Below the pieces are notes generated by a model that was given only the letters and a program-made list of their open reading frames with translations, was not told where the DNA came from and made no database searches. From a virus, in the IMG/VR virus record IMGVR_UViG_3300030098_001908, positions 6,693 to 27,903 of that record: a DNA stretch of 21,211 nucleotides; one strand, given 5' to 3'. The translations under genes were made by a program, and so were the position numbers. Each line of letters starts with the position of its first letter. Within the stretch, counting starts at the first letter, position 1. Shown one piece after another: positions 2,822 to 11,779 of this stretch.

Positions 2822-3161
2822 TAAGAATTTTATAGTCTAATAAAATACTCCCATCCACTTGTAGCTGTATATCAGGAGATAAAAGAATTTTTTTATCAAC
2901 CTTTTCAATCAATCCTTTAGATTTTGCTTTTTGAATTGCATTTCTACATGATTGAGGGCTTTTAAAAATTTGTTTTTCAGATATTGCTTTACAAAATTTA
3001 TTTAATTCTGTATCTTTAAGTTTAGCTAATTCACTTAAACAATCTAAATCTGCTTTACTTATTTGAATATCATTTAAAAAACAATATGTAACTATTTGAT
3101 ACTTTATTATAGCATCTTTAGTTACTTTAACTCTTTTATCAACCTTATTTACGATAGCCAT
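2808..3161 (-). CDS. Possible winged-helix DNA-binding protein, 117 aa
   Basis: Residues 68-85 (SPQSCRNAIQKAKSKGLI) look like the recognition helix and following turn of a winged-helix fold, in which 'S.QS.RN.I.KL..KGLI' precedes the wing. After it comes VDKKILLSPDIQLQVDGSILLDYKIL, two beta-rich strands fitting a wing. The N-terminal part is helical and holds LSELAKLKDTELNKF. This would be a transcription regulator or another DNA-binding virion or replication factor. Overlaps of 13 and 14 bases link it to both neighbours. No effector domain is visible. The call is a fold-level guess. Confidence 0.6.
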   Translation of the reverse strand: MAIVNKVDKRVKVTKDAIIKYQIVTYCFLNDIQISKADLDCLSELAKLKDTELNKFCKAISEKQIFKSPQSCRNAIQKAKSKGLIEKVDKKILLSPDIQLQVDGSILLDYKILSVEE

Positions 3162-3772
3162 GTTTTAACAATATCATTGCTGTTAACTAAAGTATATGTA
3201 AAATTATTACTCCAAGTGTCTCTAGCTTTTCTCATAATCTTCATGAACTTTGTCCAATCATCATTACTAGCAATAACTTGACAACCTGCAGACCATTTAT
3301 CTACTTGTGTTGACTTTTTACCAGCATATTTAGTAGCTCTATGAATATTAATACCAAATAATCCTGTATCTAAGTTTTCTGAATTAAAGTTATAGATGTC
3401 ATCTCTATTGTTATCTCTATAAACTGTTACAGGATTTTGTTGTCCTAATGCTTCATATCTACCTTGGTGTTTTCTAATTTTATGTGATTTAGGATATTGT
3501 CCTTCTTTCAATACTGCAGTACCTTTTGATTTAATAATTGGAGCATCCATATAATGTGATCCAGGATCTGTAGTACAATCAAATTCATGATATACCCATT
3601 CTCCATCAACTTTATATGATACAGTCATTGTATCATCAAATCTATTAGTTACTTTACCAGCAGTTTCAGAATTTCTAATTCCTACAATATTTACATTGTA
3701 GTCTCCGTTTTCAAACCACTTATAGCCTTTGCTTTCTAACGTTCTTTTAATTTGTTCTCTACTATACTTCAT
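3149..3772 (-). CDS. L,D-transpeptidase (YkuD)-like cysteine enzyme, likely peptidoglycan-acting
   Basis: The C-terminal part has the active-site signature of the YkuD fold: INIHRA with His144, then 16 residues, then WSAGCQVI with Ser161, Gly163 and the nucleophile candidate Cys164 (family: H-x14-17-[S/T]-x-G-C). Upstream strands include VTVYRDNNRDDIYNF and TGLFGINIHRA, as in YkuD domains. In bacteria these enzymes form or exchange cross-links through diaminopimelate residues. In a phage the same fold could cut or remodel peptidoglycan during entry or lysis. The first 80 residues look like a beta-rich accessory region (VSYKVDGEWVYHEFDC). I see no signal peptide, so export would need a holin or delivery in the virion. 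It overlaps the coiled-coil gene by 11 bases. Confidence 0.72.
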   Translation of the reverse strand: MKYSREQIKRTLESKGYKWFENGDYNVNIVGIRNSETAGKVTNRFDDTMTVSYKVDGEWVYHEFDCTTDPGSHYMDAPIIKSKGTAVLKEGQYPKSHKIRKHQGRYEALGQQNPVTVYRDNNRDDIYNFNSENLDTGLFGINIHRATKYAGKKSTQVDKWSAGCQVIASNDDWTKFMKIMRKARDTWSNNFTYTLVNSNDIVKTWLS

Positions 3773-5200: not shown

Positions 5201-8200
5201 TTATTTTATTCTTGGTACTGTTGTTGTTCTTAAATTTGGATTAAATATTTTTGGATTTGTAAAGTTCATTGGGTTATCAAATGATATATTATTCTCTGGA
5301 TTTATAAAACTAGTTCCAATGTATCCTGGTACTGTTCCAATATGTTTATATTTATCAAATGATGTTCCAAAATCAATTGCTTCTTTTCCAATACGTGTAT
5401 TAGCACCACTAAACATATCACCCGTTAGACTATATGAACGTCCAGTATAAGGGCTAGTTCCTAAATTGATAGGACCTTTTTGATTTAAATAATTACGTAT
5501 CTGTCCAGGATTTGTTTTATCAAATGCTCTAAGCTGATTCATTTGAGGCTTAAACTGATTTAAAGTATTAAAATCCATATAATTACCCCTTAATGTATTA
5601 TAATTACCTCTAAGACCTTTATTAAATTTCATACCTTGAGTTAAGAAGTTTGCATTTCTTCCCATACCCTGCAATCCTTTAAAAGCCATACTTCCAGCTC
5701 TACCAACAGGTAAAACAGAAATAGCATCTAGACCAACCATACCGGCATTTGCCAAATTTGGATTTTCATAAAGTCTTTTACCAGGCATGTAATATTGAGC
5801 TTCTCCCATATTTCTATCTAACCAAGTACTTTCATTTGGATCACCTTCATTAAACATATTATACACACCTCTTGGTATAGAACCAGCACCTTGAACTAAT
5901 AGAGGTCTTGCTATATCTCCAGCCCAATCTAGTGTATTAAATAAAAAACCTGATAATGGTGGAGCACCAACAGGAGCATTAGCCCAGTTACCAAGATCAT
6001 TCCACGGTTTACTTATATTTTTTTCATACCAACTTAATGGTTGATTTGATCTTTCATTTATTGTAGGAACTGTTTGTCCCCACAAATTTGCTTCTGCTGC
6101 ATTAAGTCTATCTCCTTTAGCATTAAGTAATGCCATTCTTCTATCTTTAAGATATTCAGGTATAGCTGCATTACTATAGTTTAGTATGCTTTCTTCATTA
6201 TTATTTGGATTATTAAAAGTAAGAGTTGCACTACCAATACCAGATTCTTTAATTTGATTATTCATACCAGCATGTATGTTTTCAAACATAGCATTACGGT
6301 TGTCTCCAGTTTGTCCAGGTTTATACTCTAAAAATTCATTATATGCTTTCTCATCAAAAATAGGATTACCAAAAGCATCAGTACCAGTTGTAAAATAACT
6401 TTTACCGTAAGTAGTTTTAAAATTTTCTAATTGTTCTGCATTATGAGTTTTTAACCATTCTTGTGCTTTTTTGGGTCCTAAGTTAAATGCTTTTGAAGCT
6501 AAATATCCATCAACAGCAGCTTGATTTACATTAGGTCCTGCTTCAAAAGTATTTGGGTTTCCAATTTCAAAATTATAATTATATGGTGTATCTACATAAG
6601 TATTGTCAACGTCTTGTTTTATGTTATTATCTAATATATATTGATTATAATCAAAATCATCATTGTTATTTTGCAACATAAATGAAGTATTTTCATCAGA
6701 TAATGGATCATATACAATTTCTTTATCTTTTCCTTGGTGTGTACGGAATTGATTATATAATCCAGCCTGTCTAGTAGGACTTAATAAGTCTAAATAAGTG
6801 TCTGGATTATTTTTCTTTATATCTCTTAATATTCTTGATTTTTCTTTATCATCTTTATAATAATCTACCATAAAGTTATAATAATCTTCAGCTGATGCAT
6901 TAGTTAAATCAGGATTATTTATAAAAAAGTCCATGTTCAACTCTTGATCCATTTCATTTGATATATCCATGATTTGATCAGCTGTTCTCCACTGAAAAAT
7001 ATCATCATCACCTTCTTCAACACCATACCTATTATTATTCCATATAAAGTTAGGCATTCCATCAGTACCTGCTGGCATAGCTAAATTACTAAACCTTCCA
7101 GGATTTTTAGTAAGAGCTTCATTTTTATTCATATTAAATGCAAGTTCGGTTGCATCCCTAGACATAGAAAAGGCATCTCCATATGATAAATTTTCAAACT
7201 GAGGATATAATGCTTTATATGCATTTATTACTGATTCATTACCACTAGCTAATGCGTTTTGATATTGAGCCCATGCTTGCAATTCATTATAACGTGATTG
7301 TCCACCAGCAGGCTCATAGTAAGTATCAATTCTGTTTTGATGGATCATACGCCTCATTTGATCCATTAAAGGATCATATGGTTCTGTATTTAAAAGACTA
7401 AAATTACTAAAACCATTTTGAGCTTTTGGTAGATTACCTCCATTATTAAAATAAGCTAAATCTTTTGCTTTCATTTTTTTATTTTTATTTGTTTCACCCC
7501 CTGCTTTCCATCCTCCAAATGAATTTTGACCTACCATTGTATTGTCTGCTGGGATTACAAGTTGTTCTTGCTTAAATTGATTCATTCTTTCTACATTAGC
7601 TGCTTCTTCTGCTATTCTTTTTTGTTCACTAATTATCCAAGGTTGTAAATAAGTGTTTAAATAAGCATCATTTCTAGCTAATTCTGTTCCTCCTTTTTCA
7701 TCTTTTCTAATATAATGTTCTAATGCTTTATCAAAATTATTTGTCATAATTGCATCAGCAAAATTTGGATATTTACTTAATCTACCAAGATTATAAGTAA
7801 AATCAGCTAGCATAAACTTTTCTCTAGCATCTAATTTATCATATTCTCCCTCTCCATAGTTAGCATCAATAAATATTTTAGTTTTTCTTAGAGCATTATC
7901 AATATCTTTTTTTCTACCTTCTTCTGCCTCTTCTAAAGACATTCCATCTTTATATTTTTCATAAACATCTGCTCCTTTCATTCCAAAACCAACTGTAGCT
8001 TCAGTTTCTAATGTACCATCAGAGTTTTTAAAGTAGTATGGATAAAACTTATTATCTTCAAACATCATATAATATGTTTTACCATCAGGTTTTAGCACAG
8101 AAGAAGGAGTATTCTTTATATAATCCCAACTAGCTTCTTGTTCTTGAAGCCAGTTTTCAAACATATCATATTCTTGATCATATGTACTTGTTTCTTTTCC

Positions 8201-11200
8201 TATTTGTGCTTTTTCCATATCATATGATTGTCCTCCGTATTTATATACTTCAGCTCCTTTTTTATAATTAGCATGTTTAGTATCTAACGCATATGTTGAG
8301 GTTTGACCACCATATTCTTTAAATAATGGGAATGTTCTACGTTGTAAATCAAATATATTACCTGTATAATTTTCTAAATTAAAAGTATTACCAGTATTTC
8401 TTAATTGAAGATTATTTGGTAAAGTATTATAATAATTTAATGTACCTAGTTGACCTTTGTTATATGGTTTTGTAGGATCCCATCCTTGTATTGTACCTAT
8501 AGTTTGATTATTTGGTAATACAATTTGATTAAATCCTCTATCCTGTAAGAAAGAAAAAGCTTCATTATTTAATCTTGAATAAGGATCAAATCCTATTCTT
8601 GACATTTGAATCAAACGATTCATGTTTAAACCATCATTTTCCATAAGCCTTCTGGCAACTGGAAGATCCATTTCTGCATACTCTAAGGCTTGCATTAAGT
8701 TTTGTTCTTGTCTTTCTAATTCTAAAAATTCATCAGCATATTCATCTAATCCATATATTTCATTTTTTTTATTTCTAAGGTTTGCTAACTGAGTTTCTAA
8801 ATCATTTATTTTATTATAATATTTATCTATTCTATATTTGCTTCCACTTAAATAAGTAGATAAATCCGAAACACTTTTATTTTTTAGATCAGTAAACATA
8901 GGATCTACATTAATGTCAGTCTGAAGTTCTTTTAGATTATATCTATTAGGAAATCTTTGATCTACAAAACCTCTCATCCATCCATGAGCTCCTGGATCAA
9001 GTAAATGTAATCCATCATGATGACTGTCTAAAAATGGTTTATTTAATCCAGTCATTCCTATAGAGAAATTTGTTGGTAAAATTTGATTACCTGTAAATTG
9101 CATATAAGGACTACGAACATTACCTTGATTTATATAACTAAAATGTGATGGTAAAAGTTCTGGATACATATAATAATTAAAATCAGCTTGAGTACTATTT
9201 GGATTTAAATCAGTCCATCCAGTTCTACGACCTATGATACCGTCAATATCTCGTACATCATAGTTATCTGTTATATTTGTAAATTTAAACTGTGCTGCTT
9301 GATTATTTGCAAGACTTTCAAGACTGTTAAGATCTATAAAATTTCCTTGTACTATACTAGGATTAGTTTTTATAATACTTTTTAAATAATCTGCCTCACC
9401 GCTAGTATAATTTCTTTGTAATAACTTATCAAGCTTTTTAGTATTTAATAAATTTCCATCAGTAGTCATTTTTTTTCTGACTTTAGGAGAAAATTTAAAT
9501 CTACCTGTCTGAGCTTTAGGTAATTCACCACCTTCTTTTTTGTCTCCAAACATTAAACCAACATCAGGTCTTAGATTTCCTTTTTCATCATATTTTATTT
9601 CTTTAGGAACTATAATAGGAGCATATCTATTTTTTTCTATATCTCTATAGAAATCCATTACATTATTAAACTTTGTAGTTTGTGTTACGTCTGGAAAGAG
9701 TGTAGGATGTAAATTTAATTTTAATTGATTAAATTCTAGTGGTTTAAAAGTTGAAAAGTCTAAATCAGGGGTTATTTGAGGTAAACCAACAGGGTCAATT
9801 ATTCTATAATCAAGTATAGTACCACCAAAACCTGGTTTAACCATAATATTACCACCATGCAAATCTAAATGGAATAATCCTTCTTTATTTATGTCTAGTA
9901 AAAGATTATCTATAGATCTTTCTGTATCAAAAAGACTTCTAACATTTTCATTACCTGCTGTATCAAAATACTGATGTAATGTTACATAACCATCATTATT
10001 TAAATTAGGCATGTCATAAGAGATCAATCGTCCTTCAGGATCATACATAGCATTACTAGCTGTAATAAATTTGTCTGACATTTGACCAGCATTTTGTAGC
10101 CAATCATACTCACCTTGCATACTAGCAAAAGAATAATCACCAATAACTGGATGCGTTCTTTCAGTAGCAATTTTTCTATACATATCTGTGCTTATAGGAA
10201 CAGGAGTAGGTTTAGGTTTAGGAGCAGGTTTTGATTTACCTAATAAGAAATTCCATAACTGACCTCCCCATTGTTTCTTTACTGGACCAAAAGGAAATAA
10301 TCTACTAGTACCTGGATCTCTAAGGCTTAGTCCAAATGGTGTAGGAGGAAGATTATAAGAAAAACCAAAATTTGGTTTTGCTTGTGTTATAAAATTATCT
10401 GGATTCCAATGTCTTATTTCTAATGCCCTCGGATCTGCAGGGACATTTCTTGCATAATCAAAGTCTACGTTAAACGGTGTTCCGTCAGCATTTACAAATC
10501 TGCCTGGATAAAAGAAGTTATCCGAATCCATAGGATTACGCCAGTTAAAGTTTTTTCTAAACGCTACTCTTTTATCTGGTTTTATATCAGTAAAGCCTTC
10601 ATATTCTCTCCATATACCAGTTTCTCCTGGCATGCTTCCGTCTATTCTTCTCTTATAATCCATTTCATAAGGAAACTTCATAAACGTTCCTTGAAACGGA
10701 GTATTGAGGTTAAATGTCTCTGCTAAAAGAGGGGCAACTTTATCATTTACGTCTTTTACATTTTTTCCACGCTCTGGCGTACTTATCCCACTCCAATTTT
10801 TTCTTATTGTATTACCCCCCTGCATACCAGCAAATCCGTAATCTCCTGATAATATTGTTGACAATGCATCTGTTCTACCTAATAAGAAATTATGCTGATT
10901 GTCCATTTCAGCTCTTCCTCTATATCTATCTAAGTTAGTAATTGGATCAACTCCTGAACCCATCGTACCTGCATTTACTACATAATCAGCCACAGGAGTT
11001 CTTATATCCATGTATTCATATCCAGGTATAGTCTCTATATTAAACCTTGTAGTACCAGGAGGCGCTCCTTTAGTTTTATTCCAAGATTGTGCTAAAGTCA
11101 TATATCCAGGTTGAAGTTCTCTGCTAAACGATGATGGTCCCATTAGTGGAACTGCGTTAGCATAAAAACCATGTCTTCCGTATGATCTTAAATTCTTTTC

Positions 11201-11779
11201 AAATTCACCAGTATAGTTATCTCTAATGTTAGGTAATAAATCAAATTCACCATAAGATGCTTCTACATTACCTACATATGGATTTCTTGCGTTATAAATA
11301 GGAATCTTAGGATCAGCAAATATTTCATTCATTATAGGCGATGTCTTACCTTTTCCTAGAACCTCCATATAAAAATTAGGACTAGCCTGTTTAAAATCTA
11401 CAGCCAAGTTAGCTGCATCTATTGCAAAGTTCTTATCAAGATTAAACTGATCATAGTTTTGAATAAGATTATTAAATAAAGGATTTGAAGGTTGTAGATT
11501 GGCTATATTTAATTTTGCTAGTGCTGACTTTTCATAGTCTGTAAGATTAGCAAAATCACTTACACCCATACCTAATTCATTTATTCCAGTAAAACCTGCT
11601 GTGTTAGTACCCAATCCTCTAATGTCTACATTAGGATATAAATTCCTATACTGTTGAATTATGTTAGGTCTCCATTTAGATGGTGTATATTTTACGGGAG
11701 CATACTTACCAATTCCCGTTAGACCCCATTGTGCTTTAGGTAAAAGTTTTTTTCCTTTATTTTTTAATTTTCTGGACAT
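5201..11779 (-). CDS. Giant modular (polyvalent-type) phage protein with kinase-like, lysozyme-like and LPKAQ-repeat modules, 2192 aa
   Basis: One uninterrupted frame. A basic start (MSRKLKNKGKK) leads into LPKAQWG at residues 13-19. Related motifs recur at 501-506 (KKQWGG), 753-759 (LPKAQTG), 1188-1194 (MEKAQIG) and 1450-1456 (LPKAQNG), often after Gly-Gly and lysines, and split the protein into about five modules. Module 2, after a Pro/Lys linker (518-528), has a kinase-like loop HLDLHGGN (637-644) and IDPVG (661-665). Module 3 has LKELQTD (949-955), a long coiled coil and RGFNQIVLP before W1100, resembling a domain of large polyvalent proteins. Module 4 (about 1200-1400) is GH24-like, with TVGFG at 1262-1266 and ADFTYNLG downstream. 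Module 5 ends in Gly-rich hydrophobic stretches (about 1945-2035) that might touch membrane. I infer a virion protein injected with the DNA. A candidate promoter lies at 11805-11812. Confidence 0.85.
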   Translation of the reverse strand: MSRKLKNKGKKLLPKAQWGLTGIGKYAPVKYTPSKWRPNIIQQYRNLYPNVDIRGLGTNTAGFTGINELGMGVSDFANLTDYEKSALAKLNIANLQPSNPLFNNLIQNYDQFNLDKNFAIDAANLAVDFKQASPNFYMEVLGKGKTSPIMNEIFADPKIPIYNARNPYVGNVEASYGEFDLLPNIRDNYTGEFEKNLRSYGRHGFYANAVPLMGPSSFSRELQPGYMTLAQSWNKTKGAPPGTTRFNIETIPGYEYMDIRTPVADYVVNAGTMGSGVDPITNLDRYRGRAEMDNQHNFLLGRTDALSTILSGDYGFAGMQGGNTIRKNWSGISTPERGKNVKDVNDKVAPLLAETFNLNTPFQGTFMKFPYEMDYKRRIDGSMPGETGIWREYEGFTDIKPDKRVAFRKNFNWRNPMDSDNFFYPGRFVNADGTPFNVDFDYARNVPADPRALEIRHWNPDNFITQAKPNFGFSYNLPPTPFGLSLRDPGTSRLFPFGPVKKQWGGQLWNFLLGKSKPAPKPKPTPVPISTDMYRKIATERTHPVIGDYSFASMQGEYDWLQNAGQMSDKFITASNAMYDPEGRLISYDMPNLNNDGYVTLHQYFDTAGNENVRSLFDTERSIDNLLLDINKEGLFHLDLHGGNIMVKPGFGGTILDYRIIDPVGLPQITPDLDFSTFKPLEFNQLKLNLHPTLFPDVTQTTKFNNVMDFYRDIEKNRYAPIIVPKEIKYDEKGNLRPDVGLMFGDKKEGGELPKAQTGRFKFSPKVRKKMTTDGNLLNTKKLDKLLQRNYTSGEADYLKSIIKTNPSIVQGNFIDLNSLESLANNQAAQFKFTNITDNYDVRDIDGIIGRRTGWTDLNPNSTQADFNYYMYPELLPSHFSYINQGNVRSPYMQFTGNQILPTNFSIGMTGLNKPFLDSHHDGLHLLDPGAHGWMRGFVDQRFPNRYNLKELQTDINVDPMFTDLKNKSVSDLSTYLSGSKYRIDKYYNKINDLETQLANLRNKKNEIYGLDEYADEFLELERQEQNLMQALEYAEMDLPVARRLMENDGLNMNRLIQMSRIGFDPYSRLNNEAFSFLQDRGFNQIVLPNNQTIGTIQGWDPTKPYNKGQLGTLNYYNTLPNNLQLRNTGNTFNLENYTGNIFDLQRRTFPLFKEYGGQTSTYALDTKHANYKKGAEVYKYGGQSYDMEKAQIGKETSTYDQEYDMFENWLQEQEASWDYIKNTPSSVLKPDGKTYYMMFEDNKFYPYYFKNSDGTLETEATVGFGMKGADVYEKYKDGMSLEEAEEGRKKDIDNALRKTKIFIDANYGEGEYDKLDAREKFMLADFTYNLGRLSKYPNFADAIMTNNFDKALEHYIRKDEKGGTELARNDAYLNTYLQPWIISEQKRIAEEAANVERMNQFKQEQLVIPADNTMVGQNSFGGWKAGGETNKNKKMKAKDLAYFNNGGNLPKAQNGFSNFSLLNTEPYDPLMDQMRRMIHQNRIDTYYEPAGGQSRYNELQAWAQYQNALASGNESVINAYKALYPQFENLSYGDAFSMSRDATELAFNMNKNEALTKNPGRFSNLAMPAGTDGMPNFIWNNNRYGVEEGDDDIFQWRTADQIMDISNEMDQELNMDFFINNPDLTNASAEDYYNFMVDYYKDDKEKSRILRDIKKNNPDTYLDLLSPTRQAGLYNQFRTHQGKDKEIVYDPLSDENTSFMLQNNNDDFDYNQYILDNNIKQDVDNTYVDTPYNYNFEIGNPNTFEAGPNVNQAAVDGYLASKAFNLGPKKAQEWLKTHNAEQLENFKTTYGKSYFTTGTDAFGNPIFDEKAYNEFLEYKPGQTGDNRNAMFENIHAGMNNQIKESGIGSATLTFNNPNNNEESILNYSNAAIPEYLKDRRMALLNAKGDRLNAAEANLWGQTVPTINERSNQPLSWYEKNISKPWNDLGNWANAPVGAPPLSGFLFNTLDWAGDIARPLLVQGAGSIPRGVYNMFNEGDPNESTWLDRNMGEAQYYMPGKRLYENPNLANAGMVGLDAISVLPVGRAGSMAFKGLQGMGRNANFLTQGMKFNKGLRGNYNTLRGNYMDFNTLNQFKPQMNQLRAFDKTNPGQIRNYLNQKGPINLGTSPYTGRSYSLTGDMFSGANTRIGKEAIDFGTSFDKYKHIGTVPGYIGTSFINPENNISFDNPMNFTNPKIFNPNLRTTTVPRIK

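Follow-up and report, generated by a model that had tools for sequence, protein, structure and literature searches.

The 21,211-nucleotide stretch of viral DNA analysed here, referred to as the window (positions 6,693 to 27,903 of the IMG/VR record IMGVR_UViG_3300030098_001908), is part of a 27.9-kb record, itself a genome fragment. On its minus strand a single open reading frame (ORF) with an ATG start encodes a giant protein of 2,192 residues, P0001, in which copies of a short motif, in its full form [K/R]..GGxLPKAQxG, precede a series of modules. A full-length homologue of P0001 was present in the 72-kb record L006 and a partial one in L062; a search of named phages found no direct homologue of P0001 or of the L107 protein. 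The ORF and all five motifs were located at exactly the residues given by the original prediction, which had been made from the sequence alone. The features are as follows.

5201 to 11779, minus strand: giant motif-tagged modular protein P0001 (ORF; 60% identical to the full-length L006 homologue)
11723 to 11743, minus strand: motif 1, LPKAQWG, residues 13-19, in the N-terminal tag MSRKLKNKGKKL-LPKAQWG (similar tag MARKLKK-LAKAQKG in L192)
10595 to 11722, minus strand: module 1, about residues 20-395, function unassigned (internal in L039, L073 and L192)
10262 to 10279, minus strand: motif 2, KKQWGG, residues 501-506, decayed copy (aligned with GGELPKAQFG in L006 and GGELSKAQWG in L062)
9545 to 10261, minus strand: module 2, about residues 507-745, kinase-like by sequence (HxDxHxxN and IIDPxG conserved)
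9503 to 9523, minus strand: motif 3, KKEGGE-LPKAQTG, residues 753-759 (from the sequence)
8300 to 9502, minus strand: module 3, about residues 760-1160 (conserved HHDGLHxLDPxAxGWxRGFVD...LKELQTDIN; no PDB or Pfam match)
8198 to 8218, minus strand: motif 4, KYGGQSYD-MEKAQIG, residues 1188-1194 (from alignment with homologues)
7565 to 8197, minus strand: module 4, about residues 1195-1405, predicted T4-lysozyme-like domain (AlphaFold model against PDB; weak Pfam Phage_lysozyme matches in relatives)
7412 to 7432, minus strand: motif 5, NNGGN-LPKAQNG, residues 1450-1456 (within a low-confidence linker of the model)
5204 to 7411, minus strand: module 5, C-terminal, residues 1457-2192, no match (present also in L192)

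A position-specific scoring matrix built from the motifs of many viruses gave the copies at residues 13, 753 and 1450 scores of 20-38 bits, and the top score in shuffled proteins was 6.8 bits (229,678 positions). MEKAQIG and KKQWGG fell under the reporting threshold, yet both aligned with clear copies in homologues: MEKAQ of motif 4 with LPKAQTG, LQKAQNG and IKKAQKG, and VKKQWGG at motif 2 with LPKAQFG and LSKAQWG. From this alignment with the two intact copies, KKQWGG is a decayed motif.

The Pfam search of P0001 returned no match at E-values up to 1 and no curated polyvalent domain family. Module 2 carries the HxDxHxxN and DPxG signatures of the protein-kinase/aminoglycoside-phosphotransferase superfamily; its profile matched kinases weakly (E about 1e-3), and a homologous module in L189 matched APH at 0.0012. 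We therefore describe module 2 as kinase-like on the basis of sequence. The best PDB matches of the AlphaFold model of module 4 were nearly all T4 lysozymes (E about 0.006, target template-modelling score 0.5-0.56), and module 4 is thus predicted to be a T4-lysozyme-like domain. Modules 1, 3 and 5 gave no match in the searches made. No solved structure was found when modules 3 and 4 were searched by sequence, and a fold search with the model of residues 1-1195, which was weak, was also without match. The kinase-like and the lysozyme module agree with the expectation that the modules differ in character; the label 'polyvalent-type' for residues 760-1160 was confirmed by no profile. Domains of the wider class of motif proteins, detected in relatives, were LysM, SLT, YkuD, amidase, NlpC/P60, SET, ART-PolyVal and M91, and a DUF3990 match stayed below the cut-off. 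Several unrelated domains per chain and mosaic architectures, which characterize polyvalent proteins, were found here in the form of kinase-like and lysozyme modules, their shuffling, and ART-PolyVal and SET in relatives.

The position of the motif relative to homologous segments was analysed in 121 motif-bearing proteins. Of the ends of local alignments, 12.5-13% lay within 10 residues of a motif, compared with 3.6% by chance; when the motif itself was masked, 16-19% of alignment ends lay near it, compared with 7-9% for randomly placed masks. In L101 and L107 the kinase-like module (37-38% identity to the window) lay between two copies of the motif, and module 1, N-terminal in P0001, was internal in the three relatives named above. 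The 2,679-residue protein of L192 illustrates the rearrangements. It starts with the tag MARKLKKLAKAQKG, followed by a module missing from P0001, GGSLPKLQPG and module 1; it continues with GGALAKAQKG, module 3 without the preceding kinase, GGQTFTIKKAQKG and the lysozyme module 4; and it ends with GGELFKAQPG, a HELGH module, GGSLPKAQMY and module 5. Compared with P0001, the kinase is missing and two modules are additional, with a tag at every border. These alignments support the view that the tag marks module borders and that modules have been shuffled between phages with the tag retained at almost every joint. The prediction of motifs at module borders with modules exchanged between phages thus stood, as the kinase, lysozyme and other modules were seen to be inserted, lost or moved.

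At 27 homologous borders, several of them in loci found through the motif, which biases the count, Gln was the sole invariant residue (27/27); the Lys two positions before it was kept at 25 and the Gly at +2 at 24, and the residue separating Lys and Gln was A, Y, L or K. This pattern bears on the possibility that the tag, as a neutral flexible linker or recombination joint, is kept since short homologous joints permit module swaps. The tags do lie at the borders of shuffled modules and in low-confidence linkers: the segments of motifs 4 and 5 had a predicted local distance difference test score (pLDDT) below 50, compared with about 60-82 for the adjoining lysozyme domain. A neutral linker, however, would require neither Gln at 27/27 sites nor tags at the N-termini of stand-alone proteins, and the DNA was not conserved beyond the amino acids. 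The coding sequences of LPKAQ comprised 41 different 15-mers, and their codon use matched the background. We consider the linker explanation improbable. Since the 15-mers are so diverse and codon use is that of the background, selection acts on the protein level at the motif; a DNA-level site, such as a recombination site or regulatory element, was rejected because of the same codon use.

The motif also occurs at the start of separate proteins. Proteins encoded near motif genes begin with a tag, such as MRKMKKQLPKAQSG, MKKLRRAQKG, MAKYRITSIPQSLPKAQRG and MKKYKITSIPQLLPKAQTG, and internal segments of one phage correspond to first modules behind N-terminal tags in another. GG precedes most internal copies, whereas most N-terminal copies lack GG and retain K-A-Q-x-G; because of this, the core of the motif is placed, on sequence, at K-A-Q-x-G. 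The N-terminus MKTKCMSCGGPTTKKMQAGGTAKKIQAGGTLPKAQNG of the protein at L125:5623-6459 has repeated KK[MI]QAGG units beside the motif, which may point to a broader K-x-Q-x-G family. The GG before most internal copies would agree with a self-processing or ubiquitin-like system cutting at GG instead of Gln, a reading prompted by ThiF and metalloprotease annotations in phicrAss001. The N-terminal tags that lack GG yet keep the core speak against it, and inspection by eye of the gene list of the genome G001 revealed no JAB/E1 pair, so that we judge it very improbable.

The original prediction had also named a sorting signal, and LPKAQTG superficially resembles the LPxTG of sortase-anchored surface proteins. 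A sortase substrate carries LPxTG near the C-terminus, followed by a hydrophobic segment and a basic tail; the copies here are internal or N-terminal, with 61 to 1,536 residues after the last copy in complete ORFs and a 736-residue module in P0001. The sortase explanation was rejected on these positions, and we regard its chance as negligible.

The strict DNA pattern for GGxLPKAQxG was found in at least 119 stretches of IMG/VR, compared with 7 matches of the reversed pattern in the entire collection. An in-frame motif was present in 117 ORFs of the loci listed (99 without near-duplicates), many with two to four copies. LPKAQxG occurred 82 times in 40 whole carrier records, where the reversed control occurred 0 times, and was confined to one strand per record with one exception. 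In bacterial and archaeal genomes totalling 257 Gb, a slightly stricter pattern had 6 matches, near the estimated chance number. A bacterial or prophage origin was rejected on this count and because at least one of the six (L135) looks like phage. That match, L135:3-3419, is a motif protein of this class on a contig of 114 kb assigned to a Pseudomonadales genome bin, and the contig is probably a misbinned phage.

At 77 of the 119 listed loci, a gene in the neighbourhood had a homologue among the non-motif genes of nine Crassvirales-like genomes, and most of the other loci had no testable neighbour gene; judged by these neighbours, nearly all testable carriers are Crassvirales-like phages. In the window record, the region to the left of the window contains the beginning of the major capsid gene and genes for a putative scaffold, the portal and the large terminase. 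Homologues of the phicrAss001 portal, major capsid protein, gp40, gp43 and gp50 were recognisable in relatives, the gp50 match being in the relative G022, as the window record is a fragment. With homologues of the crAss portal, major capsid protein, terminase, tail tubular protein and giant virion RNA polymerase (RNAP) thus found, the host genome is classed by gene homology as a Crassvirales-like phage. Its terminase was about 25% identical to Crassvirales gut members and to Flavobacterium Fipvunavirus phages alike, so the placement stops short of the family level. The gene for P0001 adjoins the late genes and has an ssb-like gene and a conserved gene of 101 residues as neighbours, as in the nearest relatives, and this locus in several relatives holds motif proteins of differing module content. 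The late strand of the window also encodes a 207-residue protein (3149-3772, minus strand) with GINIHRA...WSAGCQVI, an L,D-transpeptidase/carboxypeptidase-like endolysin candidate based on the PHROG endolysin match of its G001 homologue. At L144:15610-18062 (G001), genes for a MoxR-like ATPase and for a VWA protein that contains HEILH, a zinc-peptidase-like motif, lie next to each other; they are conserved in carriers and bear the label HNH endonuclease in PHROGs.

A link to virions came from gene order. In six genomes (G036, G031, G032, G019, G022 and G023), the genes for the tail tubular protein and at the muzzle position are followed by as many as three motif genes, then by a 'MATYI' gene without the motif and by giant RNAP-type genes, so that in complete relatives the motif genes lie between the muzzle and virion RNAP genes. 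The matching slots of phicrAss001 hold the cargo proteins gp45 and gp46 and the RNAP proteins gp47-gp50, found in the virion, and its C1/C2 cargo contacts the portal and tail barrel (PMC10172136). The RNAP-type genes of these relatives, up to 5,198 residues long, have no motif; G031:23966-39559 and G007:28044-39689 are single ORFs of 5,198 and 3,882 residues, located in the RNAP region of Crassvirales-like records, and are LPKAQ-free. The N-terminal domain of many motif proteins in the first slot is homologous to gp40 of phage phi4:1, annotated as a virion protein by tandem mass spectrometry. This domain of about 80 residues, IPSGxITMKGVDFPVxGxDNLGN...PGxDYxFPG, occurs at L073:2584-2930, L066:3674-3930 and L185:2968-3260, has no Pfam match, and may possibly be a virion-docking domain. 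The tag itself is unlikely to be a general virion-packaging signal, because the virion RNAP genes of the same genomes lack it. We infer that P0001 is also located in the virion.

These positions also bear on whether the tag is cut at all. It may instead be an uncleaved docking or ejection signal, a linear peptide by which each module binds the portal, tail barrel or scaffold, the chains being threaded and ejected bead by bead. One tag per module is found also on single-module proteins, where cutting a polyprotein would be pointless, and basic residues surround it. The restriction of the tag to C1/C2-type cargo-slot genes, its absence from virion RNAP genes and the portal and tail-barrel contacts of the phicrAss001 counterparts fit docking as well, and the N4 virion RNAP is a precedent for packaging uncut (PMC5512222). 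On the other side, the conservation of one Gln and a Lys with a tolerant position between them resembles a protease site more closely than a binding surface, and a flanking GG linker is of the type that exposes a cut site. We rate docking as possible but rather unlikely, and less likely than a maturation-protease site.

The explanation we favour, at about even chances, is that the motif is a module-proximal tag on ejected cargo of a Crassvirales-like lineage and most likely a putative Gln-directed processing site. Processing at Gln was rated likeliest because of the single invariant Gln, the GG linker site and precedents for cut internal proteins. T4 gp21 cleaves internal proteins. Head proteins of SPN3US (PMC10052503) and DarA and DdrB of P1 (PMC5512222) are also cut. 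According to this explanation, each module, whether a cell-wall hydrolase, kinase-like, ADP-ribosyltransferase-like, metallopeptidase-like or unassigned, would be preceded by one tag made of basic residues, usually GG, and then L-P-K-A-Q-x-G, located N-terminally for a module encoded first and in a flexible linker for fused modules. The tagged proteins would be loaded into the virion, then ejected and probably injected into the host; a phage factor would read the tag by recognising the Gln in the K-[A/Y/L]-Q core. The tag would most likely be a site at which a maturation protease releases modules or trims their leaders, and cutting would let separate domains through the narrow tail. More tentatively, these double-stranded DNA phages may use a strategy like that of RNA-virus polyproteins, in which a putative Gln-specific protease cuts cargo chains at LPKAQ|xG into swappable injected enzymes.

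Several observations weigh against processing of ejected cargo, in addition to the bias in the border count. No prohead protease was recognised among the G001 late genes, several conserved head-region genes being without profile match, and no receptor for the tag was found. The model of residues 1-1195 was too weak to judge exposure of motifs 1-3. The window gene lies outside the muzzle-RNAP cassette, though its modules are shared with cassette proteins, and phmmer with gp45 and gp46 gave no match in nine genomes. The strict motif was in none of nine named Crassvirales and relatives scanned. It was absent from phicrAss001, phi14:2 and phi4:1, whose cargo functions without it. As to a partner protease, a search for Peptidase M91 had no match, which is uninformative as control genomes were also unmatched, and in a phylogenetic profile of carriers against motif-less phages the sequences were too divergent to decide. 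Of the original proposal that the motifs are cleavage, sorting or docking signals, the general idea of a signal gained from the border marking, the shuffling, the cargo positions of the class and the domain shared with a virion protein detected by mass spectrometry, and sorting in the sortase sense was dropped. With the border motif, the proteins that abundant uncultured Crassvirales-like phages probably inject, most of them without a profile match, can be searched for and divided into modules. A single peptide motif also makes it possible to test in what way phages ready large protein cargo, and set its order, for passage through a narrow tail.

Relatives of P0001 resemble the C1 (gp45) and C2 (gp46) proteins of phicrAss001 in occupying late-strand slots between muzzle and virion RNAP (PMC10172136), in genomes with homologues of its portal, major capsid protein, gp40, gp43 and gp50. 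Unlike them, they show no detected homology to gp45 or gp46, whose cargo has no LPKAQ motif and forms one channel-forming protein rather than multi-enzyme modular chains, and the window gene is located elsewhere. Motif-bearing cassette proteins have their N-terminal domain in common with gp40 of Cellulophaga phage phi4:1 and a further stretch in common with its gp41, but the phi4:1 genome lacks the strict motif. Polyvalent proteins likewise combine unrelated effector domains, including lysozyme and kinase domains, in mosaic chains with predicted co-delivery with DNA; their account contains neither LPKAQ nor a recurrent border motif and ascribes processing to an in-chain metallopeptidase (PMC5512222), unlike here. 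The head proteins that prohead proteases cut (SPN3US gp245 at A-X-E, PMC10052503; T4 internal proteins) have a short motif near the N-terminus, and some are ejected, as proposed here; the present motif differs in having Gln instead of Glu and many copies per chain, no prohead protease was recognised, and cleavage is only predicted. Both phage proteins that are injected as multi-domain chains and internal proteins that are cleaved have been described before; the recurrent short tag that appears to punctuate swappable modules across a phage lineage was absent from the literature searched, where LPKAQ is undescribed in this sense, and is to that extent new.

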